Below are positions 9,482 through 38,671 of a stretch of 64,000 bases of DNA, one piece after another (position 1 is the first letter of the stretch; each line of letters opens with the position of its first letter). Origin of the DNA: Polaromonas sp. GTDB lineage: Bacteria; Pseudomonadota; Gammaproteobacteria; Burkholderiales; Burkholderiaceae_C. Location: assembly GCF_010365105.1 (NCBI RefSeq), contig NZ_JAAFGZ010000004.1, positions 62,001-126,000 of the forward strand, in the 5' to 3' direction. The notes under the pieces were generated by a model, which made no database searches, had not been told where the DNA came from, and saw nothing but the letters and a program-made list of their open reading frames with translations. Both the position numbers and the translations under genes were made by a program.

Positions 9482-11506
9482 TTATCGGTTGAGCCAGACG
9501 AAATACGTCATCAACACAAAGATGCCAAGAATCATGCCAAAAGCATAGTGATAGATATAGCCCGACTGAAGGCGCCTGACCATGCTTGAAACCCAGCCAA
9601 CAAATTTCCAGGAACCATTCACCAGCGCGCCGTCAATCAGCATCTGGTCGCCGACCTTCCAGAACACAGTACCGAGGCCGCGCATACCGCGGGCAATGAC
9701 GTTTTCATTGAACCAGTCCAGGTAGTACTTGTTTTCAAGCAGCGTGTAGATCGGGCTCAGATTGCGCTTGATTGCAGTCGGCAAGGCGGGATTGACCATG
9801 TACATGTAGTAGGCCAGCACCACGCCTGACAGGGCAAGCCAGAAAGGCGGAGATGAAAAGCCATGAATGGCCATCTGCACGGGGCCATGAAACAGGCCAG
9901 CCAGTTCTTCCATGCCAGGATGACGTTCCAGGTTGACAAAAATCGCACCCTTGAAAAAGTCACCGAACAGCATCGGCTCGATGGTCATGAAACCGATGAC
10001 AACCGACGGAATAGCCAGCAGAACCAGCGGTAGCGTCACGACCCACGGCGATTCGTGCGGCTCATGGTGTTCATGATGGTGCCCGTGATCGTCATGTGCA
10101 TCATGATGAGCGTCAGGGTTCTGGTCATAGCGTTCCTTGCCGTGGAAGACAAGAAAGTAAAGACGAAATGAGTAGAAGGCTGTGACAAAAACGCCGGCCA
10201 GCACCGCGAAATAAGCAAAACCACTGCCCCAGAGATGGCTTTCGGCCACCACTTCAATGATGCTGTCCTTGGAATAAAAACCGGCAAAGAACGGTGTCCC
10301 GATGAGGGCCAGCGAACCTAGCAGGAAGGTGATCCAGGTGATGGGCATGTACTTGCGCACGCCCCCCATCCAGCGAATGTCCTGGTTGTGATGCATGCCG
10401 ATGATGACAGAACCTGCGGCCAGAAACAGCAGAGCCTTGAAAAACGCATGTGTCATCAGGTGGAACACCGCCACCGAATAGGCAGATGCGCCCAGCGCTA
10501 CGGTCATGTAACCCAGTTGCGACAACGTGGAATACGCAATGACCCGCTTGATGTCGTTCTGGATGATGCCCAGAAAGCCCATAAACAGCGCGGTGATGGC
10601 ACCAATCACCATGATGAAACTCAGCGCGGTATCACTTAGTTCAAACAACGGCGACATCCGCGCCACCATGAAAATACCGGCCGTTACCATGGTCGCGGCA
10701 TGAATCAGTGCCGAGATGGGCGTTGGGCCTTCCATTGAATCTGGAAGCCAGACATGCAGCGGAAACTGCGCTGACTTGCCCATGGCTCCAATGAACAGGC
10801 AGATGCAGATCACGGTGATCAGCATCCAGCCAGTACCCGGAAACGTCAGCTTGGAAAGCGCATCAGCCTTTGCAAAGGCTTCGCCATAGTTCAGCGTGCC
10901 CGCATAGGCAGCAATCAGGGCAATCCCCAGAATAAAGCCGAAGTCACCGACCCGGTTCACCAGAAAGGCCTTCATGTTGGCAAAAATAGCGCTGGGTTTG
11001 TTGAACCAGAAACCGATCAGCAGATACGAAACCAGACCAACCGCTTCCCAGCCAAAGAACAGCTGGAGCATGTTGTTGCTCATCACCAGCATCAGCATGG
11101 AAAAGGTAAACAGGGAAATATAGGCAAAGAAACGGTTATAGCCTGCATCTTCTTCCATGTAGCCGATGGTGTAAATATGCACCATGAGTGAGACAAAAGT
11201 CACCACGCACATCATCATGGCTGTCAGACCATCCACCAGAAAGCCAACTTCCATTTTCAGGTTGCCCACTGTCATCCAGGTGTAAAGCGTTTCGTTGAAT
11301 CGCGCACCATCAACGACCACACTTTGCAGTGTCATGGCAGAGATGATGAAGGCTATGAACACACCCAGAATGGTCAGGGTGTGCGCGAGACGGCGCCCTA
11401 TCCAGTTACCACCAAACGTGGTTCCCAGAATACCGGCCAGCAGTGCGCCAGCCAGAGGTGCCAGCGGAACAGCCAGCAACGTCGAGGCAGAAAGGGTTTG
11501 GCTCAT
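9482..11506 (-). CDS. nuoL: NADH-quinone oxidoreductase subunit L
   Basis: The 674-residue distal antiporter-like subunit of the complex I membrane arm has about 15-16 helices plus the long lateral helix near the C-terminus. Conserved motifs include LFFGWEAVGLVSYLLIGFW, GKSAQFPLHVWLPDSMEGPTP and NDIKRVIAYSTLSQLGYM. I chose ATG 11506 (MSQTLSAS); the 36 residues upstream in frame overlap nuoK. A histidine- and aspartate-rich segment lies at roughly residues 460-482, in a loop between helices after KERYDQNPDA; such loops vary among relatives. nuoK ends 7 bases upstream. Confidence 0.97.
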   Translation of the reverse strand: MSQTLSASTLLAVPLAPLAGALLAGILGTTFGGNWIGRRLAHTLTILGVFIAFIISAMTLQSVVVDGARFNETLYTWMTVGNLKMEVGFLVDGLTAMMMCVVTFVSLMVHIYTIGYMEEDAGYNRFFAYISLFTFSMLMLVMSNNMLQLFFGWEAVGLVSYLLIGFWFNKPSAIFANMKAFLVNRVGDFGFILGIALIAAYAGTLNYGEAFAKADALSKLTFPGTGWMLITVICICLFIGAMGKSAQFPLHVWLPDSMEGPTPISALIHAATMVTAGIFMVARMSPLFELSDTALSFIMVIGAITALFMGFLGIIQNDIKRVIAYSTLSQLGYMTVALGASAYSVAVFHLMTHAFFKALLFLAAGSVIIGMHHNQDIRWMGGVRKYMPITWITFLLGSLALIGTPFFAGFYSKDSIIEVVAESHLWGSGFAYFAVLAGVFVTAFYSFRLYFLVFHGKERYDQNPDAHHDAHDDHGHHHEHHEPHESPWVVTLPLVLLAIPSVVIGFMTIEPMLFGDFFKGAIFVNLERHPGMEELAGLFHGPVQMAIHGFSSPPFWLALSGVVLAYYMYMVNPALPTAIKRNLSPIYTLLENKYYLDWFNENVIARGMRGLGTVFWKVGDQMLIDGALVNGSWKFVGWVSSMVRRLQSGYIYHYAFGMILGIFVLMTYFVWLNR

Positions 11507-28972: not shown

Positions 28973-30046
28973 TCAGCCTGCCAGAACGGGGGCGGGCTGG
29001 ATATCGGCAAGATTCCAGCGCGGCTTCACGTCAAAGGTGTAGCTGCCCTGCAGCCTTTGCAAATCGCCCAGTCCGGCCTGCAATCGCATGCCGGCAGCCA
29101 TGGCGATCATCGCGCCGTTGTCAGTGCAGAACTCCAGCTCGGGGTAATGCACGCGAATGCCGCGCTGCCGGCAGGCGGCATTCAACTGGCTGCGCAGCAA
29201 GGCGTTAGCGCCGACGCCGCCGGCCACCACCAGCCGTTTGAGGGCAGTTTGCGACAGGGCGGCCAACGTTTTTTTCACCAGCACATCCACAATCGCCGCC
29301 TGGGTGGATGCTGCCAGGTCGGCCTTGCGGCTTTCCAGCTCGGGGCCGAGCTTTTTGGCCTGCGTCAGTACGGCGGTCTTGAGGCCGGAGAATGAAAAGT
29401 CCAGGTTGCCGCTGTGCAGCAGCGGGCGCGGCAATTGGAAGGCCGCGCCATCGCCGCCCAACGCCAGCCGGGCCAGATGCGAACCCCCGGGATACGGCAG
29501 GCCCATCAGCTTGGCCGACTTGTCGAAGGCCTCGCCGGCCGCGTCGTCGATGGTTTCGCCCAGTAATTCATAGCGACCGACCCGGTCCACGCGCATCAGC
29601 TGGGTGTGGCCGCCCGACACCAGCAGCGCGACAAAAGGAAACTCGGGCGGGTCGGCGCTCAGGAAAGGCGACAGCAGGTGCCCTTCCAGGTGGTGCACGC
29701 CCATCGCCGGCTTGCCCAGCGCGGCGGCCAGCGAGCAGGCCACGCCGGCACCGACCAGCAGCGCGCCGGCCAGTCCGGGACCGCGCGTGTAGGCCACCAC
29801 ATCGACATCGGCCAGCGTACGCTGCGCGACCTTCATCGCCTCCTGCGTCAGCGGCAGCACGCGCCGGATGTGGTCGCGGCTGGCCAGTTCGGGCACCACG
29901 CCGCCAAAGGGCTGGTGCATGACGATCTGGCTGTGCAAAGCGTGTGACAGCAAGCGCGGCACGCCGCTGCCGCTGGCATCGACCAGCGCCACACCGGTTT
30001 CATCGCAACTCGACTCGATTCCAAGAACCAGCATTTTTTCAAACAT
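28973..30046 (-). CDS. tsaD: tRNA N6-adenosine threonylcarbamoyltransferase TsaD
   Basis: The 357-residue ASKHA-fold protein transfers the threonylcarbamoyl group from TC-AMP to A37 of ANN-decoding tRNAs, working with TsaB and TsaE. It has the N-terminal [15 protein letters not shown], the metal-binding HxxxH in [10 protein letters not shown] (residues 119 and 123), and VSGGHTQLM. The start may be ATG 30046 (MFEKMLVLG) or ATG 30034 (MLVLG), which is the common N-terminus. It lies 50 bases after the short-chain dehydrogenase gene of the TPP-regulated operon and could be read through from it. Confidence 0.96.
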
Positions 30047-30096: not shown

Positions 30097-30894
30097 CTAC
30101 TTCATCACCAGTCCGCCATCGACAAACAGCACTTGCCCCGTCATGAAGCGGCTCCAGTCCGAGGCCAGGAACAGCACAGGCCCGGCCACGTCTTCGGGCG
30201 TGGCCACCCGCCGCAGCGGGGTTTGCCCGACGATCATCGCCCTCACCTCTTCAGGCGTGCCCTGGCTGGCCGACGTGGGGTAGACCAGTCCGGGCGCGAC
30301 GCAGTTGACGCGAATACCCAGCGGCCCCAGCTCGACGGCCAGGTTGCGGCTGAAGCCGACCAGCGCGGACTTGGCCGTGGTGTAGTCGTGGTAGGGAATG
30401 GAAGGCCGCTCGACCAGATCGCTCACCATGTTGACGATGCTGCCCCGGGCGCGCTGCCTGAAATGCGGCAGCACGGCCTGGCAGACGTTGTAGGCGGCGT
30501 GAACCGCGCCGTCCAGCTGCGCCTCGTAGTCGCTCCAGGCCAGTTCCCAGAACATCTTTCGCTGGTCCGGGTCGAAGGTGAAGGCCTTGAAGGCGTTGTT
30601 GACCACCACGTCAATGCGGCCGACCTCGTTCAATGCCTGCGCCACCATGGCCTGAACTGCTGCTTCGGAGCAGACATCGGCCTGAATCGCCAGGCCGTCG
30701 CCGCCCACCTCCTGGCAGCGTGCCACCACTGCGTTGGCAGCGGCCTCGTTGCTCAGATAGTTGACGACCACCAGCGCGCCCTCGCGGGCAAAGGCCAGCG
30801 CAATCGCCGCACCTATGCCCCGGCTGCCGCCGGTGACCAAGACCACCTGGCCCTGGAATTTCAGGGCAACTGCACCGTGGGCTGCGGTGCTCAT
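30097..30894 (-). CDS. Short-chain dehydrogenase/reductase, last gene of TPP-riboswitch operon
   Basis: The 265-residue Rossmann protein has the cofactor motif VTGGSRGIGAAIA, NNA at about residue 100 and the catalytic pair in YTTAK within DYTTAKSALVGFSRNL; it looks like a 3-oxoacyl-ACP-reductase-type SDR. Asn after the first strand end (VVVNYLSN) and a basic Arg in SRGIG suggest NADPH, though this is weak. Its ATG overlaps the thiY stop by four bases. In this operon a natural job would be reducing the aldehyde released by the LuxC-like protein to an alcohol. That is inference from context. The usual role in fatty acid synthesis cannot be excluded. Confidence 0.88.
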   Translation of the reverse strand: MSTAAHGAVALKFQGQVVLVTGGSRGIGAAIALAFAREGALVVVNYLSNEAAANAVVARCQEVGGDGLAIQADVCSEAAVQAMVAQALNEVGRIDVVVNNAFKAFTFDPDQRKMFWELAWSDYEAQLDGAVHAAYNVCQAVLPHFRQRARGSIVNMVSDLVERPSIPYHDYTTAKSALVGFSRNLAVELGPLGIRVNCVAPGLVYPTSASQGTPEEVRAMIVGQTPLRRVATPEDVAGPVLFLASDWSRFMTGQVLFVDGGLVMK

Positions 30895-31925
30895 GGCGCG
30901 GGCAGCAAGTCCTGGCTCACCACTTCCGAGACCTTGATGGGACGCTGCACCAGCCCCAGCGCAAGGTAGGTGTCAGCAGCTTTTTGCAGCACCGCCAGAT
31001 CAAAAGCGCCCAGCCCGTTTTTGCGTGTCGTGGCCGACACACTGGCCAGGTTGCGCAGGCCGATGACTTCACGGTTGATGGCAGCGTCCTTGCCGTCAAT
31101 CGCATACTTCACCGCCAGCGCCGCCGCCTCGTCGGGTTGCCGGATCATCCAGGCGGCACTGTCGCGGTAGGCTGCCAAAAACTGGCGCAGCAGCGGCTTT
31201 TTTTGCTGATAGGTTTCCTCGCGCACTACAAACATGTCGCTGGAGACGTTCAGGTAGTCCTTTACTTCCATGACGTTGACATCGGCCAGGCCTTTTTGCC
31301 GGCCGACCAGCAAGCCGGTGTCGGTGGCGGCGGTGGCGTCCACCTGGCCCTGCATCAGCGGCGCGAAATTGAGCAGGCCCGTCACCACGATGGTCACGTC
31401 CGACTCGCGCAGGCCAGCCTGATGCAGCAGCACCAGCAGGTTTTGTCGCGTGCCGCTGGACAGGCTGTAGACGCCAATCTTCTTGCCTTTCAGGTCCGCC
31501 GGCTTGTTGATATTGCTGCCCTTGAGCGACACCACGTTGAAGACATTTTGTGGATAGATGTCATAGATGGCGCGCAGCTTTTCACCCTTTTCGAGTGCCG
31601 AGAAAAAGGAACCCGGGTCGGTGAAGGCGATGTCGGCCTGCCCGGTCAGCAGGTTGCGCAGCGCGTCGCCGCCACCCGCGCCCGGCACGTAGCGCAACTC
31701 AATGCCTTTGGCCTTGAAAAAACCCTTGTCTTCATCGACCAGCAAGTTGGTCACTTCGGTGATCGGTTTGCTCCAGCCGGCGACAACGAATTTTTCCAGG
31801 CTGGCGGGCGGCGCGGCGAATGCGGTGCCCGCGAGGCCAGGTCCCAGCAGTGCGCAAGCCGTGGCGGCCGCAGCCAACCGCGTCAATGAACGACGGGCAA
31901 GCGAAGGATGCAAGATTTTTTTCAT
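30891..31925 (-). CDS. thiY: NMT1/THI5-like ABC substrate-binding protein (ThiY type)
   Basis: The 344-residue exported protein begins with a positively charged, twin-arginine-containing signal (RRSLTRLAAAA), cleaved probably near AFA-AP at residue 38. It continues as an NMT1-type type II binding protein: FVVAGWSKPITEVTNLLVDEDKGFF, GQADIAFTDPGSFFSALEKG and KKIGVYSLSSGTRQN. This superfamily also covers sulfonate, nitrate and thiamin-precursor binding. The TPP riboswitch makes a thiamin precursor (such as formylaminopyrimidine, HMP or a relative) likely. It overlaps both neighbours by four bases, showing tight coupling. Confidence 0.8.
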   Translation of the reverse strand: MKKILHPSLARRSLTRLAAAATACALLGPGLAGTAFAAPPASLEKFVVAGWSKPITEVTNLLVDEDKGFFKAKGIELRYVPGAGGGDALRNLLTGQADIAFTDPGSFFSALEKGEKLRAIYDIYPQNVFNVVSLKGSNINKPADLKGKKIGVYSLSSGTRQNLLVLLHQAGLRESDVTIVVTGLLNFAPLMQGQVDATAATDTGLLVGRQKGLADVNVMEVKDYLNVSSDMFVVREETYQQKKPLLRQFLAAYRDSAAWMIRQPDEAAALAVKYAIDGKDAAINREVIGLRNLASVSATTRKNGLGAFDLAVLQKAADTYLALGLVQRPIKVSEVVSQDLLPAP

Positions 31926-32701
31926 GATGGAGTTTGTTTGGGAAGCAGGGTGATACGCGACGCCAGCAGGCGTTTTTCAAGCACGAGGGACAACTGGTAC
32001 AGCAGCAGGCCCAGCAAGGTGATGAGCACTAGCACGGCAAACATCAGCGGCGTGTCCATCATGCCCTGCGAGGCAATGATGAGCGCGCCCAGGCCGGAAC
32101 TGCCGCCAATAAATTCTCCGACGACAGCGCCTACGAGCGCCAGCACCACGGCGACGCGAAAGCCGCCCAGGATGCCGGGCAGCGCCGAGGGCAGCTTGAG
32201 CCGCAGCAGCGTCTGCCAGCGTGTGGCGCCCAGCATGCGAAACAGCTCCAGCCGCGATTGATCGACCTGGCCCAGGCCGGTCATGGTGTTTTCCATCAGC
32301 GGAAAAAAGCAGACCAGCGCGGTGATCACCACCGTCGAGGTCATGCCAAAGCCGAACCAGACGATGAACAACGGCGCCAGCGCCAGCTTGGGAACAACCT
32401 GGCTGGTGATGACATAAGGCATCAACAATCGCCGCAGACTGGGCGATTCGCCCAGCGCCACGCCGCCGACCAGACCCAGCACGCAACCGGCGGCCAGCCC
32501 CAGGACCAGTTCCAGCACCGTCTGACCGATATGCGGCCACAAGTAGCCCGACAGCAGGCCTTTGTACAGCGCGTCAAACACCAGCGACGGCGGCGGCAGC
32601 ACCAGCGCCGACAGCTTGAGCTGGCGCGCCAGCAACTCCCAACCCAGCAACCCGGCGGCAAACAGCAGCCAGGCAAAAAAATGGGCCCAGCGAGCACTCA
32701 T
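31922..32701 (-). CDS. thiX: ABC permease (ThiX type)
   Basis: The 259-residue membrane protein has about six helices, and the EAA loop for the ATPase is near FRMLGATRWQTLLRLKLPSALPGILGG. It belongs to the SsuC/TauC/NrtB-like permease family. I chose ATG 32701, which overlaps the thiZ stop; the 16 residues upstream in frame overlap the ATPase gene. With ThiY and ThiZ it forms a complete importer. Confidence 0.86.
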   Translation of the reverse strand: MSARWAHFFAWLLFAAGLLGWELLARQLKLSALVLPPPSLVFDALYKGLLSGYLWPHIGQTVLELVLGLAAGCVLGLVGGVALGESPSLRRLLMPYVITSQVVPKLALAPLFIVWFGFGMTSTVVITALVCFFPLMENTMTGLGQVDQSRLELFRMLGATRWQTLLRLKLPSALPGILGGFRVAVVLALVGAVVGEFIGGSSGLGALIIASQGMMDTPLMFAVLVLITLLGLLLYQLSLVLEKRLLASRITLLPKQTPS

Positions 32702-33453
32702 GACGCACCCTCGCCACCGGCATCCATGCCCGACCTGAGCTGCGCACACAGCGCATTGAAGGCCGGGCTGTAGCGCACGTCGCGCCCGCGCGGCCGGGGC
32801 AGCGCCACCGGCAGGTCCTGGCAGATGCGCCCGCCTGCCATCACCGCCACCCGGTCGGCCAGATACACCGCTTCACTGATGTCATGCGTGACGAAAAACA
32901 CCGTGGTCTGGCGCAGGCGGCATAGCGCCAGCAAATCGTCCTGCAGGTCTTCGCGGGTGATGGCGTCAAGCGCGGCAAACGGCTCGTCGAGCAGCAGCAT
33001 GGCGGGCTCGCCGACCAGCGCGCGGGCAATCGCCACCCGGCTTTGCTGGCCGCCTGACAGATGGCGCGGATAATGGTGTTGAAGGGCCAGCAAGCCCATC
33101 AGCGACAACAGTTCGCGCGCCCTGGCCACGTCCTGCGGCGTGGGCGGATGGCGCAGCGACAGCGGCAGCAGCACGTTGTCGAGCACGGTGCGCCACTCCA
33201 GCAGCGTCGGCGACTGAAAGACAAAGCCCAGTTCGGGGCCGGGCCGGGTGTGCGGCACACCCTGCAGGCGGATCATCCCGGCACTCGGCTGCAGCAGGCC
33301 GGCAGCCAGCTTGAGCAGCGTGGTCTTGCCGCAGCCGCTGCGCCCGACCAGGCAATGGAACTCGCCCTGCGCGATGCGCCAGTCCACCCGGTCAACCACG
33401 GCCGGCCAGCCCGGATAGGTGTAGCTGACCTGCGCCATGTCCAGAAAACTCAT
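32698..33453 (-). CDS. thiZ: ABC importer ATPase (ThiZ type)
   Basis: The 251-residue ATPase has Walker A GRSGCGKTT, the Q-loop FVFQSPTLLEWRTV, signature HLSGGQQSR, Walker B LLLDEPFAALD and the switch histidine in FVTHDISEAV. It is of the SsuB/TauB/NrtD type. It starts 30 bases after the luxC-like gene, the only real gap in the operon, and overlaps thiX by four bases. Confidence 0.87.
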   Translation of the reverse strand: MSFLDMAQVSYTYPGWPAVVDRVDWRIAQGEFHCLVGRSGCGKTTLLKLAAGLLQPSAGMIRLQGVPHTRPGPELGFVFQSPTLLEWRTVLDNVLLPLSLRHPPTPQDVARARELLSLMGLLALQHHYPRHLSGGQQSRVAIARALVGEPAMLLLDEPFAALDAITREDLQDDLLALCRLRQTTVFFVTHDISEAVYLADRVAVMAGGRICQDLPVALPRPRGRDVRYSPAFNALCAQLRSGMDAGGEGAS

Positions 33454-33483
33454 GGCTGGCGCCCGTTTTTACAGTCCAGGGCG

Positions 33484-34944
33484 TTAATCGACATAGGGCG
33501 CAAAGCTTTCCGCGGCGAGTTCGGCCGATTGTTCAATCTCGACCATCTGGACCAGGTCCAGCAGATTGAAGCGTCCGTCGTGGTGCCAGCCGGCCTCGGG
33601 CGAGGTCATGCTGCCCAGCGCGCAGATGCGGGTCACGCCGGCCTGCCCCAGTTGCCCGGCCAATTCAAACAGCTCGGCGGGCGCGGCCGCCAGCCCCACG
33701 GTTTGCAGATAAACGCGGCTGCGGGCAATCTCGGGAAGCACCTGTGCCAGCGCGTCCACCGCCACCACCAGCACAGTGCGGTTCAGCGCGCTGGGCTCCA
33801 ACCCTTGCAATTGATCGGCATAGGCCACACGCCACGGCGCATCCAGCTCGCCGATCAGGCTGGCGCCGGGCTGCGTCATCAACCTGAGTTCTTGCGCCTG
33901 GTTCCATCGCGCCACCTCGCTGGCCTCGTTCAGCGGCAGCGTGCGGCGCGGAAACCTAGGCTCCAGACTCGCAATCGCCTGCGCCAGGTACTGGGCGAAG
34001 GCCTGCGGCGACACCTTGCCGCCGCGCTCGACATAAAACAGCTGCGGCGAATAACAACCTTGCTGGTCGTAGCGCACCACGTCGATGGCCGCCTGCTGCG
34101 CCGTGACCAAGGCCTTGCGCGCATCCAGCGCGGCACGTGCCACCATGCCGAAACTGAGCTTGTGGCCATACCCCAGAAAGCGCGTGGTGATGGGGACCTG
34201 CGCGCGCAATGCCTGCAGCGCGCCATTGCCGCCATAAGCCAGCACCACGTCAGCCTGCGCAAACAGCGCCTGCTCCAGCGGCGCGTCGCCGCCCTTCCAC
34301 CAGCCCACCGCGAGGCAGTCGGCCAGCGCCGGGTCCAGTTCCACCAGCAGGTGGGCGAACCAGCCGGCCAACAACGGCTCGGCGCTGGGCAGTTTGCCAA
34401 TGCTGCCTGACTTGACCAGCAGGCTGGAAATCAGACTCCACAGCGGCAAACCCGGCACATTGCCGGCCCAGACATGAACCAGCAACTCCGGCCCCACGGC
34501 CTTGGCAAAACCGCCCTTGGGGCGCGGCTGGAATTCATCGAGCAGCTTCGGATTGGCAAAGTCCTCGGCCACAAAGCGCTGCAGCTGCGGCTGGCGAAAA
34601 GTCTTGAGGTAACTGGTCAGCCCCAGCCGCACCGTCTCGGCGTCGTAGCCGGTGACCAGCGGCAGCAGTCGGTCGGCCTGCTGGCGATACGGGTCGCTGC
34701 GGTCCAGCAGGCGGGCGATGGCGCGATCGACCAGCGTGATGATCTGCGACACGCTGCGCGTCTTGAGGTAGGCCCGGCTGCCCTGCTTGACGCGCTCGGC
34801 CAGTGCTGACCATTGCGCCTGGCTCAGGACCGGCACGGCGACTTCGAGCCGCTCGCCGCCAGTGCCGAAATGCAACGTCTGCCATGCCAGCTCGTCTGCC
34901 TTGAAGCCCGGCAGGTAACCGGCCACGGCGTGTAATGTTGTCAT
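33484..34944 (-). CDS. LuxC-like acyl-thioester reductase
   Basis: The 486-residue protein belongs to the LuxC (acyl-CoA reductase) family, an aldehyde-dehydrogenase-like fold. The catalytic cysteine is in YDQQGCYSPQLFYVE at residue 297, matching the acylated cysteine of LuxC (about residue 286). The VHVWAGNVPGLPLWS segment is typical of the family. LuxC takes the acyl group from LuxE and releases an aldehyde using NADPH. It lies directly behind the LuxE-like gene (4-base overlap), as in lux operons, but there is no luciferase. Under a TPP riboswitch, the acyl group is more likely a thiamin-related carboxylate than a fatty acid; this is inference. Confidence 0.87.
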   Translation of the reverse strand: MTTLHAVAGYLPGFKADELAWQTLHFGTGGERLEVAVPVLSQAQWSALAERVKQGSRAYLKTRSVSQIITLVDRAIARLLDRSDPYRQQADRLLPLVTGYDAETVRLGLTSYLKTFRQPQLQRFVAEDFANPKLLDEFQPRPKGGFAKAVGPELLVHVWAGNVPGLPLWSLISSLLVKSGSIGKLPSAEPLLAGWFAHLLVELDPALADCLAVGWWKGGDAPLEQALFAQADVVLAYGGNGALQALRAQVPITTRFLGYGHKLSFGMVARAALDARKALVTAQQAAIDVVRYDQQGCYSPQLFYVERGGKVSPQAFAQYLAQAIASLEPRFPRRTLPLNEASEVARWNQAQELRLMTQPGASLIGELDAPWRVAYADQLQGLEPSALNRTVLVVAVDALAQVLPEIARSRVYLQTVGLAAAPAELFELAGQLGQAGVTRICALGSMTSPEAGWHHDGRFNLLDLVQMVEIEQSAELAAESFAPYVD

Positions 34945-36059
34945 GCGCGCGCGGCCTGCAAAAATTCTTCCACCGCCAGCGAGCAGCCTTTGGCCTGCGT
35001 GCCTTCGGCGCGGCCGAGCAGCAAAAATCCGTCCGTGACCGCCACGCCGACGTCTTCGGTGAGGATGGTCGTCACCGAGTTGAAATTGGCCAGGTCGCAG
35101 TGCGCCAGCACGCCCTGCTCGCCATGCGCCACCTCCGCGCCGCTCAAGGGGTTGACCAGCCGCGAGCGTATCCAGTGCGGGCCCGACTTGACCGCCGGCA
35201 GCACTGCATTGCCGTGGTCATAAAACTGCGTGCTGAGTTCGGTCATCCCGTACATGTTGATGCAATGCTCCGGCGGCACGCCCAGCAGAGCGGTCAATTG
35301 CGCATAAAATTGCGCCATGGGAATCTCGCGCGACAAGCCTTTGAAGCCACCGGTGTCCAGTACCTGGCTGCCCGCTGGCAGTGCAAAGTTTCGCCCCCGT
35401 GCTTCCAGCGCATCCATCAGGTGCACCAAACTGTAGGACGCGCCCAGCAGCGCATAAGGCTGACCCGTGGCCTCGGCCTGTGTCAGCGCTGCGCACACGC
35501 CCGCCGTATCAAGTCCGGCGGCGTCGATAAAGTAGCGGCTGCCGTCGGCGCCAAAGGTCTGTAACGCCAACGCCAGGTAATGCGCCAGCGAGGAGTTGGC
35601 CATCACTTCTTCAGTCGGAAACAGGATACCCATGGTGATGCGGCTCTGGCCGCGCATGAAACGCCGGGCGAAGTTGGCGCGCATCGAGGCGTCGTACACC
35701 GCCAGCGTTGGATGGTGGTGCTTGCCCTTGACGTCGCCCTGCGTGGTGCCGCTGGTCATGAACACGCGATCCGTGTTTGAAGGAGGCTGGCAGGTCAGGA
35801 TCAAGGCCTTGAAGGCACTGATGGGAACGGCCGGAATGTCCTGCCAGGTCTTGACCGTGCGCGGCGTCTTGCCGCGCTGCCGGCAAAAGCGCTGGAACGG
35901 TGTGTTGTGGGCAAACTGGTAGGCAAACAGCGCCAAAGCCTGGGCGTTGAAGGCCTCGTCAGTGACGCCATCTTGCGCCATGAAGGCCAGCACGCCGTCA
36001 ACGATGCGGTCGGCAAGGGCTTGCGAGCGGGCAGGTATTGCGGTGTCAAGGGCATCCAT
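34941..36059 (-). CDS. LuxE-like acyl-protein synthetase, first gene of TPP-riboswitch operon
   Basis: The 372-residue protein resembles LuxE: an adenylate-forming enzyme that activates a carboxylic acid with ATP and passes it to its own cysteine and then to LuxC. The nucleotide motif is FMTSGTTQGDVKGKH, and an acid-activation region ending in NMYGMTELSTQFYD is visible. The acyl-accepting cysteine lies near the C-terminus in AKGCSLAVEEF (about residue 359), as in Vibrio LuxE (Cys364). I chose ATG 36059 because AAGGA (36073-36069) is 9 bases away; ATG 36068 is too close to it. It is the first gene after the riboswitch. Confidence 0.87.
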   Translation of the reverse strand: MDALDTAIPARSQALADRIVDGVLAFMAQDGVTDEAFNAQALALFAYQFAHNTPFQRFCRQRGKTPRTVKTWQDIPAVPISAFKALILTCQPPSNTDRVFMTSGTTQGDVKGKHHHPTLAVYDASMRANFARRFMRGQSRITMGILFPTEEVMANSSLAHYLALALQTFGADGSRYFIDAAGLDTAGVCAALTQAEATGQPYALLGASYSLVHLMDALEARGRNFALPAGSQVLDTGGFKGLSREIPMAQFYAQLTALLGVPPEHCINMYGMTELSTQFYDHGNAVLPAVKSGPHWIRSRLVNPLSGAEVAHGEQGVLAHCDLANFNSVTTILTEDVGVAVTDGFLLLGRAEGTQAKGCSLAVEEFLQAARA

Positions 36060-36068
36060 GGTCGTCAT

Positions 36069-36105
36069 TCCTTCAAGAGGCTGCGGTGGCAGGGTGCTCC
36101 TGAAG
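36069..36105 (-). promoter_or_regulatory. Hairpin masking the luxE-like ribosome binding site (riboswitch expression platform)
   Basis: On the minus strand CTTCAGGAG (36105-36097) pairs over nine positions, one G-T, with CTCTTGAAG (36079-36071). The 3' arm of the stem overlaps the start of the AAGGA ribosome binding site (36073-36069). This suggests translational control by the upstream aptamer. The pairing is visible; the switch is inferred. Confidence 0.5.
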
Positions 36106-36139
36106 TCGTGATGGCCAGGGCGTGAACCCTGTCCTGACA

Positions 36140-36235
36140 GCTCTTCTTACGTCGGCATGACCCGATTCAAGTTCGCGGGTTTGGTGAAACCATCTCAGCC
36201 GCCCTGCCATCACTGGCCGGACTGCACCCCGAAGC
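36140..36235 (-). promoter_or_regulatory. TPP riboswitch (THI element) aptamer
   Basis: Read on the minus strand, the 96-base element has the THI-box landmarks in order: CGGGGTGC, then GGCTGAGA (36200-36193), an ACCCGCGAACTTGA block, and CGGGTCATGCCGACGTAAG (36163-36145). P1 is short: GCTT with GAGC, including one G-T pair. The aptamer binds thiamin pyrophosphate and normally turns downstream genes off when thiamin is plentiful. It lies about 80 bases upstream of the luxE-like start. Confidence 0.93.
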
Positions 36236-36440
36236 GGAAACGATTCTAAACGCAAGGGCCCGTCGCTTCGTGTGACGCGAGGCTGGCCGTCAACCGCTGC
36301 CGATGCGCATCGACTGCGCAGTGGCGTAGATGCTGTGGTCAATGCAAAACAGCATGTCCAAATGCTTCGCCACCGCGCACGAAAGGCTGTTGCTTTCCCG
36401 GCCAAACCAGCCACCGGCATGCATTTTGCTAGTAAAAACC
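36236..36440. other. Divergent intergenic region between TPP operon and nasT
   Basis: About 200 bases between the riboswitch aptamer and nasT. The promoters of the TPP operon (minus) and nasT (plus) should lie here. I could not pick convincing -35/-10 pairs. No other gene is visible. Confidence 0.5.
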
Positions 36441-37073
36441 ATGACATTGCCCCATTCCCTGCGCCTGGTGGTCATTGCACCGGACCTGATGATTGACGAT
36501 GCCCACGACGAGGCGGCCGTGGCGCTGGCCGAGCGCTCGCGGCAGCTGCGCATAGGCCTGCTGGAAGGCGGCTTCAACCTGATTGCCACGCTGCCAGCCG
36601 ACACCTTTCTGCGCGAACGGCTGGCGCAGTTGCAGCCCGACATGATCATCGTCGATGCCGAAAGCGATGCCCGCGACTCGCTCGAACACGTCGTCATGGC
36701 CACGCGCGACGAGCGCCGGCCCATCGTGCTGTTCACCAATGACGACGACACCCGGCATGTCAAGGATGCAGTAGCCGCAGGTGTTTGCGCCTATATCGTC
36801 GCCGGGCTGGAGCCCGCACGCATCCGGCCCATCCTCGATGTGGCGATGGCGCGCTTTGAGCACGAACAGGGGCTGCGCCGCGAACTGGCCGATGCACGCA
36901 CCGAACTGAAGGACCGCAAGGTCATCGACCGCGCCAAGGGCATGCTGATGCAGCGTCAGGGCCTGTCGGAGCAGGCGGCGTATGAAAAGCTGCGCAAGGC
37001 GGCCATGGACAAGGGCCTGCGTCTGGGCGACGTGGCGCAGCGCATGCTCGATGTGGCTGACCTGCTCGGCTAG
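36441..37073 (+). CDS. nasT: NasT-type antitermination regulator (receiver-like plus ANTAR domain)
   Basis: The 210-residue protein has an N-terminal receiver-like domain (about residues 6-125) and a C-terminal ANTAR RNA-binding domain (about 135-205) with DRKVIDRAKGMLMQRQGLSEQAAYEKLRKAAMD. ANTAR proteins bind pairs of hexaloop hairpins and prevent termination. Two nearby leaders contain such hairpins, so it probably controls nrtABC and nirB-cobA expression. Family members are usually held by the nitrate sensor NasS; no nasS is adjacent. ATG 36441 follows a GTAAAAACC stretch without a strong ribosome binding site; the 37 upstream residues in frame are not conserved. Confidence 0.88.
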   Translation: MTLPHSLRLVVIAPDLMIDDAHDEAAVALAERSRQLRIGLLEGGFNLIATLPADTFLRERLAQLQPDMIIVDAESDARDSLEHVVMATRDERRPIVLFTNDDDTRHVKDAVAAGVCAYIVAGLEPARIRPILDVAMARFEHEQGLRRELADARTELKDRKVIDRAKGMLMQRQGLSEQAAYEKLRKAAMDKGLRLGDVAQRMLDVADLLG

Positions 37074-37097
37074 GCCGTCAACGCCGAAATGGTGCGG

Positions 37098-37114
37098 TGC
37101 ACAACAGCAGTGCA
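37098..37114. promoter_or_regulatory. Candidate NtrC enhancer upstream of nrtABC
   Basis: TGCAC-N7-GTGCA is a 17-base inverted repeat with the half-sites and spacing of the NtrC consensus (TGCACC-N5-GGTGCA), differing at the inner C and G. It lies about 145 bases upstream of the sigma-54 promoter, a usual enhancer distance. Confidence 0.55.
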
Positions 37115-37155
37115 CTTCCTGAAAAGTGGGCTTTCAACCCGACGACAGCCAAAAT

Positions 37156-37218
37156 GCTATTGATTCAGTAGCTACTCATACAAGCAGGGCAAGCGGAAGA
37201 GCCCTATGAGCTTGAAAT
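37156..37218 (+). repeat. Interspersed repeat copy, nas region (copy 1 of 3)
   Basis: About 63 bases beginning GCTATTGATTCAGTAGC with CATACAAGCAGGGCAAGCGG in the middle. It aligns with 38788-38852 and 41594-41658. It lies between the NtrC site and the sigma-54 promoter. Confidence 0.6.
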
Positions 37219-37248
37219 TTTCAATCCTGGCCTGGCAACCGGCTTCAA

Positions 37249-37265
37249 TTGGCACAGCTTTTGCA
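37249..37265 (+). promoter_or_regulatory. Sigma-54 promoter of nrtABC
   Basis: TTGGCACAGCTTTTGCA contains the sigma-54 core TGGCAC-N5-TTGCA with the GG (-24) and GC (-12) dinucleotides at the right distance. The start of transcription should lie about 12 bases downstream, leaving a leader of roughly 140 bases before nrtA. Confidence 0.85.
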
Positions 37266-37279
37266 ATGAATTGAACAAT

Positions 37280-37330
37280 GGGCTTTGCGCTTCAACGGCG
37301 AGGTGGAAAGTCCAAAGAACAAAGGCGTTC
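37280..37330 (+). promoter_or_regulatory. Two-hairpin ANTAR target in nrtABC leader
   Basis: Hairpin P1 (37280-37313) has a stem GGGCTTT/AAAGTCC, a G-G mismatch, then CGCTTC/GAGGTG and the hexaloop AACGGC. Hairpin P2 (37317-37330) is GAAC-AAAGGC-GTTC. Both loops have A at position 1 and G at position 4, the signature bound by ANTAR proteins. P2 shares bases with the 5' arm of the terminator that follows, so it can act as antiterminator. Confidence 0.8.
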
Positions 37331-37382
37331 GAACCCTGCTGTCACACCTCGATGTGACGGCCCGGATCGAACGCCTTTTTTT
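37324..37382 (+). terminator. Leader terminator before nrtA (attenuator)
   Basis: GGCGTTCGA (37324-37332) pairs with TCGAACGCC (37367-37375), flanked by AAA and followed by a run of T's. An inner hairpin GTCACA/TGTGAC lies in its loop. It overlaps the P2 ANTAR hairpin, so NasT binding should favour read-through into nrtA at 37415. Confidence 0.85.
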
Positions 37383-37414
37383 ATTTTGTTGTTTTATTTC
37401 CAGGAGTTGCTGAC

Positions 37415-38671
37415 ATGACGGACCTGCTCAAACCTTCCCTGACCCGCCGCAGCGTGCTGCAAGCCGCCGCCGTGGGTGCCGTGGGCATCAGCCCGGCATT
37501 GCGCGCCGCCGTCTATGCGCAGGGCTCGGACGCGCCGGAAAAAAAGGAAGTCAGGATCGGCTTCATTCCACTGACTGACTGCGCGTCGGTGGTGATGGCG
37601 TCGGTGCTGGGCATCGACAAGAAATACGGCGTGACCATCATTCCGTCCAAGGAATCGAGCTGGGCCGGCGTGCGCGACAAGCTGGTCAACGGCGAACTCG
37701 ACTTTGCCCATGTGCTGTATGGCCTGATCTACGGCGTGCATCTTGGCACTGCCGGCCCGAAGAAGGACATGGCCGTGCTGATGACGATCAACAACAACGG
37801 CCAGGCGATCACGCTGAGCAAGAAACTCGCCGACAAGGGTGCCGTCGATGGCGCCGGACTGGCCAGGCTGATGGCGTCTGAAAAGCGCGAATACACCTTC
37901 GCCCAGACCTTCCCCACCGGCACGCATGCGATGTGGCTGTACTACTGGCTGGCGGCCAACGGCATCAACCCGATGACGGACGCCAAGGTCATCACCGTGC
38001 CGCCGCCGCAGATGGTCGCCAACATGCGCATTGGCAACATGGACGGCTTTTGCGTCGGCGAGCCGTGGAACCAGCGCGCCATCATGGACGGTATTGGCGT
38101 CACCGCCGTCACCACGCAGGACATCTGGAAAGACCATCCGGAAAAGGTCTTGGGCACGACCGCCGAGTTCACCCAGAAATACCCCAACACGTCCCGCGCC
38201 GTGACCGCCGCCATCCTGGAAGCGGGCAAGTGGATCGACGCCAGCCTGGCGAATAAAAGCAAAATGGCCGAAACCATCGCCGGCAAGGCCTATGTCAACA
38301 CCAGCGTGGACGCCATCAACCAGCGCATTCTGGGCCGCTACCAGAACGGCATGAGTGGCTCATTTGCCAAGACCTGGGACGACCCGAACCACATGAAGTT
38401 CTTCAACGACGGCGCGGTGAACTTTCCGTACCTGTCGGACGGCATGTGGTTTTTGACGCAGCACAAGCGCTGGGGCCTGATGAAAGAGCACCCGGACTAC
38501 CTGGCCGTGGCCAGGCAGATCAACAGGATCGACATCTACAAGCAGGCCGCCAGCGCCGCCAAGGTGAGCGTTCCAAAGGACATGATGCGCACCAGCAAGC
38601 TGATCGACGGCACGGTCTGGGACGGCAAGGACCCGAAAAAGTATGCCGACAGCTTCAAGGTTCACGCCTGA
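37415..38671 (+). CDS. nrtA: Nitrate ABC transporter substrate-binding protein (NrtA/CmpA type)
   Basis: The 418-residue protein has a Tat-type signal (LTRRSVLQAAAVGAVG) and a NrtA/CmpA-type binding domain beginning VRIGFIPLTDCASVVMA. Other family segments are TFPTGTHAMWLYYWLAANGI, GNMDGFCVGEPWNQ and MWFLTQHKRWG. It binds nitrate (or nitrite) in the periplasm for NrtBC. Good ribosome binding site CAGGAG. It is the first gene after the sigma-54 promoter and attenuator. Export argues against it being the cytoplasmic NasS sensor. Confidence 0.92.
   Translation: MTDLLKPSLTRRSVLQAAAVGAVGISPALRAAVYAQGSDAPEKKEVRIGFIPLTDCASVVMASVLGIDKKYGVTIIPSKESSWAGVRDKLVNGELDFAHVLYGLIYGVHLGTAGPKKDMAVLMTINNNGQAITLSKKLADKGAVDGAGLARLMASEKREYTFAQTFPTGTHAMWLYYWLAANGINPMTDAKVITVPPPQMVANMRIGNMDGFCVGEPWNQRAIMDGIGVTAVTTQDIWKDHPEKVLGTTAEFTQKYPNTSRAVTAAILEAGKWIDASLANKSKMAETIAGKAYVNTSVDAINQRILGRYQNGMSGSFAKTWDDPNHMKFFNDGAVNFPYLSDGMWFLTQHKRWGLMKEHPDYLAVARQINRIDIYKQAASAAKVSVPKDMMRTSKLIDGTVWDGKDPKKYADSFKVHA

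Follow-up and report, generated by a model that had tools for sequence, protein, structure and literature searches.

What would a bacterium do with the acid-reducing enzymes of bioluminescence under the control of thiamin? The question is raised by a 64,000-nucleotide stretch of the genome of Polaromonas sp. (RefSeq assembly GCF_010365105.1, contig NZ_JAAFGZ010000004.1, positions 62,001 to 126,000; hereafter the window, to which all coordinates refer unless a locus is named). Six open reading frames, all on the minus strand, lie here in a single tight run from 36068 down to 30097 in the order luxE-like, luxC-like, ATP-binding cassette (ABC) ATPase, permease, NMT1/THI5-type binding protein and short-chain dehydrogenase/reductase (SDR), and a thiamin pyrophosphate (TPP) riboswitch (THI element) precedes them. 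Gene content, catalytic residues, the riboswitch, conservation, genomic context and co-occurrence were observed directly, and on this basis we consider it likely that the run is a TPP switch-controlled operon for salvage of the pyrimidine half of thiamin through reduction of a pyrimidine carboxylate, probably 4-amino-2-methylpyrimidine-5-carboxylate.

The element in the luxE leader (36127-36241, minus strand) was identified by a permissive search as a full-length match to RF00059 (read from 36241 to 36127, model positions 1-105, E 3.9e-9), and the spacing to the luxE start is 58 bases. Its score of 51.1 bits lies below the Rfam gathering score of 54.3 bits, which is a curation cut-off and not a property of the RNA, so the element is not listed by a search at that cut-off. 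The preliminary description, which had placed a THI element ahead of the operon, is nevertheless correct on this point: a chance or misread riboswitch can be ruled out despite the low score, as 50 of 50 related loci (picked from 80 for quality and spread) carry an upstream RF00059 match, with scores of 46.7-74.4 bits. The gathering score was reached by 28 of these leaders. Forty-two have matches at 50.9-74.4 bits, the nearest 34-925 bases from luxE, and in all 42 the THI core was confirmed on the sequence; the remaining eight score 46.7-50.1 bits. The riboswitch precedes luxE or, at loci led by thiD or thiW, these genes. Our own THI pattern scans (strict, 34/79; loose, 88/91) gave false and missed calls (the loose pattern has at least one likely false match, in locus L078, and the patterns overlooked a 71.7-bit element in L123), and the count of 50 was therefore restricted to Rfam matches. 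The predicted fold of the leader is not more stable than those of shuffled sequences (z 0.23).

At 36139-36150 (minus strand) a variant 3' core, GUAAGAAGAGC or similar, replaces GUAGGGA; it is common to many betaproteobacterial leaders and may keep them near or below the Rfam cut-off, and the usual 3' core is present in leaders such as those of L043 and L090. The source genome has four TPP elements including that of the operon. The others precede thiC in the run thiC-thiO-thiG-thiE (L005), a thiM-thiE-thiD set (L006, 3450-5807) and a CytX-like permease that faces a second thiM-thiE-thiD set (L007, 204-2565), the two sets being 71-75 per cent identical to each other (names from NCBIfam, from Pfam for the ThiG frame and the second ThiM, and for the second set also from identity to the first).

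When a collection of 84,980 species genomes was scanned with LuxE, 126 relatives emerged and 80 were kept. Of these, 64 have the complete set of six genes; among the other 16, 11 sit on short contigs whose ends fall within the cluster or close to it, three have no matching ATPase gene (the Alcaligenaceae bins L052, L054 and L061, between luxC and the permease) and two are without ABC genes. The carriers range from Comamonadaceae to Bacillus and Desulfosporosinus and include Polaromonas, Variovorax, Ramlibacter, Delftia, Comamonas, Bordetella, Thauera, Oceanobacillus and Desulforamulus, with LuxE identities of 59-93 per cent (best segment). The six-gene form was also found on plasmids of Azospirillum lipoferum (L124), A. 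brasilense Sp 7 (L131) and Priestia megaterium (L125), where the TPP element was identified by Rfam in L124 (59.6 bits) and by motif scan only in L131 and L125; other named carriers of the core are Lactiplantibacillus plantarum SRCM103295 and Pantoea dispersa MLY101. In a sample of 319 Bacillota genomes compared with the LuxE of L099, homologues at 44-55 per cent identity have the switch (L104-L106), and none of the 16 at 34-39 per cent (L107-L122) has one at the gathering cut-off within flanks of about 1.5 kb, where weaker elements may still exist. A tree built from 48 LuxE rows places the 32 with a switch label on one side of a 100/100 branch (25 labelled by Rfam and seven by motif scans: L009, L043, L090, L091, L125, L128 and L131). 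In L107-L112 the open frames that contain the switchless homologues are 942-1057 codons long and may encode LuxC-LuxE fusions. The possibility raised earlier, that conserved clusters mostly lack THI elements, is contradicted by the 50 loci.

Are the enzymes functional? The LuxE-like protein (34941-36068) scores 62.9 bits against PF04443 (cut-off 24.9) and aligns with chain E of PDB 7xc6 (E 6.7e-13), the alignment stopping at residue 345. The motifs SGTT (106-109) and YGMTE (with Y273 and E277), which we take to be adenylation motifs, are conserved, S106, G107, T108, T109, Y273, E277, D339 and R353 being kept in all 92 aligned members and Cys362 in 91, with a gap in the remaining one. The LuxC-like protein (33484-34944) reaches 302.6 bits against PF05893 (cut-off 21) and aligns with chain A of 7xc6 Cys on Cys (E 4.2e-17); its Cys297, in QQGCYSP, is present in all 87 aligned members. 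By analogy with LuxE and LuxC, Cys362 and Cys297 are presumably the acyl carriers. In the SDR (30097-30894; PF13561, adh_short_C2, 204.2 bits), T21, R25, G26, G28, N100, Y171 and K175 occur in all 80 members, and residue 158 is Ser in 66 and Thr in 14. With their catalytic residues intact, the enzymes look alive. The junctions from which a single transcript was proposed previously, four overlaps of four bases and one gap of 30, and the two cysteines singled out there are likewise borne out. The overlaps lie between luxE and luxC (34941-34944), the ATPase and permease genes, the permease and binding protein genes (31922-31925), and the binding protein and SDR genes (30891-30894), and the gap between luxC and the ATPase gene; the second overlap is of four bases if the ATG at 32701 is the permease start, the GTG at 32749 listed by the open reading frame program giving 52 bases. 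All six proteins score above their Pfam cut-offs.

The operon resembles the LuxCDE fatty acid reductase (LuxC-LuxE, 7xc6) in its predicted LuxE-type adenylation with a Cys carrier and LuxC-type Cys reductase, but it has a TPP switch, a transporter and an SDR. Neither luxA, luxB nor luxD is among its six genes (no genome-wide luxAB search was made), and the scores are far below those of the luminescence equivalogs (LuxE NF052244, 49.9 of 550 bits; LuxC NF052251, 86.3 of 750).

The transporter consists of a ThiZ-like ATPase (32698-33453; PF00005, ABC_tran, 109.6 bits), a ThiX-like permease (31922-32701; PF00528, BPD_transp_1, 113.3 bits) and a binding protein (30891-31925; NMT1, 171.7 bits) that agrees with ThiY/NMT1-THI5 proteins in both profile and fold. 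Its nearest fold is ThiY with N-formyl-4-amino-5-aminomethyl-2-methylpyrimidine (FAMP), followed by a thiamin-bound protein (VIA-align over the top 1000, a comparison at the level of the fold), and it is a putative binder of thiamin-type pyrimidines. Its identity to the ThiY structure 3ix1 is 18 per cent. The ThiXYZ/ThiY importer serves the salvage of FAMP and 4-amino-5-aminomethyl-2-methylpyrimidine through YlmB and TenA; the chemistry of the present operon would be carboxylate reduction, not deformylation and deamination.

Comparison of the loci identifies LuxE, LuxC and SDR as the constant core and the transporter as the changeable part, which is a ThiY-type ABC system, an NCS2 nucleobase permease or nothing. 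An NCS2-type permease replaces the ABC genes in a Bacillota genome (L099), on plasmids of L. plantarum (L126) and Levilactobacillus brevis (L127), and on a megaplasmid of Niallia taxi (L128); PF00860 was found in the permeases of L099, L126 and L128, and the L127 protein has the same accession as that of L126. The TPP elements of these loci are Rfam matches in L099, L126 and L127 and a motif scan hit only in L128. No transporter at all accompanies the core in the alphaproteobacterial loci L062 and L070 and on the Pantoea plasmids L123 and L129; the Pantoea dispersa copy (L123) is the core by itself, with its 71.7-bit switch. Two further cores differ in other ways. In L132 the next gene after the core (9826-11379) encodes a protein with both AIRS domains and a thiamine-phosphate synthase domain (ThiN), and on Pseudomonas silvicola plasmid p1 (L130, 7926-11192) LuxE, LuxC and SDR match in several pieces behind a THI-like motif, a core that is probably decayed or badly sequenced because its matches are fragmented.

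From these observations we infer the substrate, the direction and the reaction steps as follows. TPP riboswitches act as OFF switches, and the operon would be expressed when TPP is low. The ThiY-type importer would bring in the pyrimidine carboxylate, the LuxE-like enzyme would convert it with ATP to the acyl-AMP and move the acyl group onto its own Cys362, and the LuxC-like enzyme would accept it on Cys297 and reduce it with NADPH to the aldehyde, which the SDR would convert to 4-amino-5-hydroxymethyl-2-methylpyrimidine (HMP). ThiD would then phosphorylate HMP to HMP pyrophosphate, and ThiE would couple this to the thiazole. If a sequence from acid over aldehyde to alcohol ends in HMP, the starting acid must be 4-amino-2-methylpyrimidine-5-carboxylate, a compound reported as a thiamin catabolite.

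Which thiamin genes accompany the operon was analyzed in 50 operon genomes (35 Proteobacteria and 15 Firmicutes). ThiG (above 300 bits) was detected in 47 and ThiC in 38. The preliminary description asked whether such clusters occur in species lacking thiC or thiG. Nine genomes (seven isolates and two metagenome bins) have thiG without thiC, and none has thiC without thiG; three miss both, and most keep both. Carriers without thiC include the Ramlibacter strains L034, L041, L044 and L066. ThiM is present in 16 genomes (one of the 35 Proteobacteria and all 15 Firmicutes), and the source genome itself has it. Thiamin pyrophosphokinase (TPK) was found in all 15 Firmicutes and in none of the 35 Proteobacteria, and ThiK above cut-off in none of the 50. 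In nearly all of the Proteobacteria, 4-methyl-5-(2-hydroxyethyl)thiazole (HET) and thiamin would thus be unusable by these enzymes, and HMP would be usable.

The control set comprised 398 genomes with a completeness of 95 per cent or more, all from the family to which the window belongs; the operon LuxE is present in 41, ThiC in 291 and ThiG in 306. The operon occurs in nine of the 22 genomes with thiG but without thiC (13 lack it), in 32 of the 284 with both genes (252 lack it), in none of the seven with thiC but without thiG and in none of the 85 without either. This four-way split shows the operon restricted, in this sample, to thiazole-making genomes (thiG in 41 of 41 carriers) and enriched where thiC is lost (thiC-/thiG+ versus thiC+/thiG+, odds ratio 5.5, Fisher p 8e-4, the genomes not being independent). 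For this reason we recounted by genus: the operon occurs in 6 of 15 genera that include a thiC-/thiG+ genome versus 12 of 80 that include a thiC+ genome (p 0.034), and thiG in 17 of 17 operon genera versus 86 of 115 overall (p 0.006). In the Firmicutes set, LuxE was present in 5 of 179 genomes, too few for a co-occurrence test.

Thi genes were found within the retrieved stretch in 21 of the 80 relatives, with thiD directly upstream of luxE in 12; in L028 and L032 the SDR gene is immediately followed by thiO and thiG. Among the three acids named in the preliminary description, the pyrimidine acid is favoured by the thiC/thiG pattern, the rarity of ThiM and the absence of TPK in Proteobacteria, the adjacency of thiD and the ThiY-FAMP-like fold; thiazole acetate and thiamin acetic acid are disfavoured. 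The broader proposal of thiamin-controlled salvage by carboxylate reduction is supported by these genomic tests, at the level of predicted function.

Several points weigh against the pyrimidine-acid reading. Most operon genomes keep thiC, so the operon would usually be a second pyrimidine source. Taken by itself, loss of thiC showed no association with the operon (thiC is missing in 9 of 41 operon genomes versus 98 of 357 others); only the split by thiG is informative, and its genus-level statistics are modest. The surroundings point to the thiazole in some loci: thiM-thiD-thiE and thiW lie upstream of luxE in the Bacillaceae L067 and L087, L102 has thiW upstream and thiM-thiD-thiE downstream, and in L050 the run luxE...SDR continues into thiM-thiD-thiE. 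Finally, in Hylemonella (L065, 8506-9603) a TctC-type (tripartite tricarboxylate) receptor gene, which points elsewhere, lies between the binding protein and SDR genes. A similarly sized gap between these two genes was seen in L068 (5407-6251).

Of the alternatives, the one that survives best assigns the trio to a thiC-independent pyrimidine route within the cell, where the acid would be an internal intermediate and the last two reductions would lead to HMP. We consider this unlikely. It would account for the transporterless cores (L062, L070, L123 and L129), for the gene order of L028 and L032, where thiD lies on one side of the operon and thiO/thiG on the other, in the manner of a thiC replacement (the L028 genome still has thiC), and for the nine of 50 operon genomes with thiG but without thiC; it sits poorly with the full ABC importer in 64 of 80 relatives and the NCS2 permease in another branch, and clustering of the neighbours (on crude gene calls) revealed no further enzyme recurring in many loci.

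Less likely still is 4-methylthiazole-5-acetate as the acid, which would be reduced to HET and passed to ThiM. ThiM is absent from 34 of the 50 operon genomes (34 of the 35 Proteobacteria), and ThiG, present in 47 of the 50 and in every carrier of the family, is never missing where thiC is kept. The thiM-thiD-thiE and/or thiW genes around the operon in L067, L087, L102 and L050 fit such a route, as does ThiM in all 15 Firmicutes and in the source genome. ThiW, however, is a predicted thiazole transporter, and where it is present the operon retains a separate transporter, ABC in L067, L087 and L102 and NCS2 in L128 (there thiW and the permease, both named by Pfam, are adjacent upstream of luxE); we therefore take thiW to serve the other (thiazole) half.

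Reduction of thiamin acetic acid to thiamin is very improbable, because TPK is absent from all 35 proteobacterial operon genomes and ThiK from all 50 at its cut-off; moreover, the thiG retained in 47 of the 50 would be superfluous for salvage of whole thiamin. An unrelated acid, fatty or sulfonate-like, with incidental TPP control is no more probable, given the TPP switch in all 50 loci, the thi genes near 21 of 80 relatives, the switch-bearing LuxE rows on one side of the 100/100 branch and scores far under those of the luminescence equivalogs (49.9 of 550 and 86.3 of 750 bits).

Past the SDR gene, tsaD (28973-30046, minus strand) starts after 50 bases on the same strand and may be co-transcribed; it is also downstream of the operon in L008, L009, L010 and L065. 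Divergent from the operon, at 36330-38671 (plus strand), a NasT-like regulator with an ANTAR domain and an NMT1_2 binding protein similar to NrtA look like the beginning of a nitrate uptake cluster. This pair also adjoins the operon in L008-L010 and L055, and in the Pantoea copy L123 a nitrate regulator and NrtA lie about 8 kb away.

Bacteria are known to recover the pyrimidine of thiamin from HMP itself or from amino-pyrimidines. TPP-riboswitch regulons are described as covering genes of thiamin synthesis and precursor transport (Sun et al. 2013, PMC3766115), and the operon's switch, likewise over predicted precursor transport, is similar in this respect; the main text of that broad survey contains neither "lux" nor "reductase". 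We found no literature linking LuxE/LuxC with a TPP riboswitch or thiamin (subscription papers and regulon databases were outside the search, and earlier notice is possible), and searches for the acid by name otherwise returned only unrelated chemistry. We could not find an earlier description of a carboxylate-reducing salvage of a thiamin fragment in the searchable papers.

If the pyrimidine-acid reading is true, it would account for what happens to the oxidised pyrimidine that has been reported among thiamin catabolites, genes at present annotated as fatty acid ligase and acyl-CoA reductase would need new names in at least two phyla, and LuxE/LuxC chemistry would gain a role in vitamin metabolism. 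It could also explain how thiamin is made in some, not all, of the genomes with thiG but without thiC. We further suggest, more tentatively and at slightly less than even confidence, that LuxE-LuxC-SDR is a portable ThiC bypass with interchangeable transporters, spread across phyla and plasmids, which would return the oxidised pyrimidine (or an acid made by the cell) to HMP and with which some bacteria may have given up ThiC. Should this hold, carboxylated breakdown products of thiamin would be a real currency for the vitamin in soil and water as well as in plants and fermented food.

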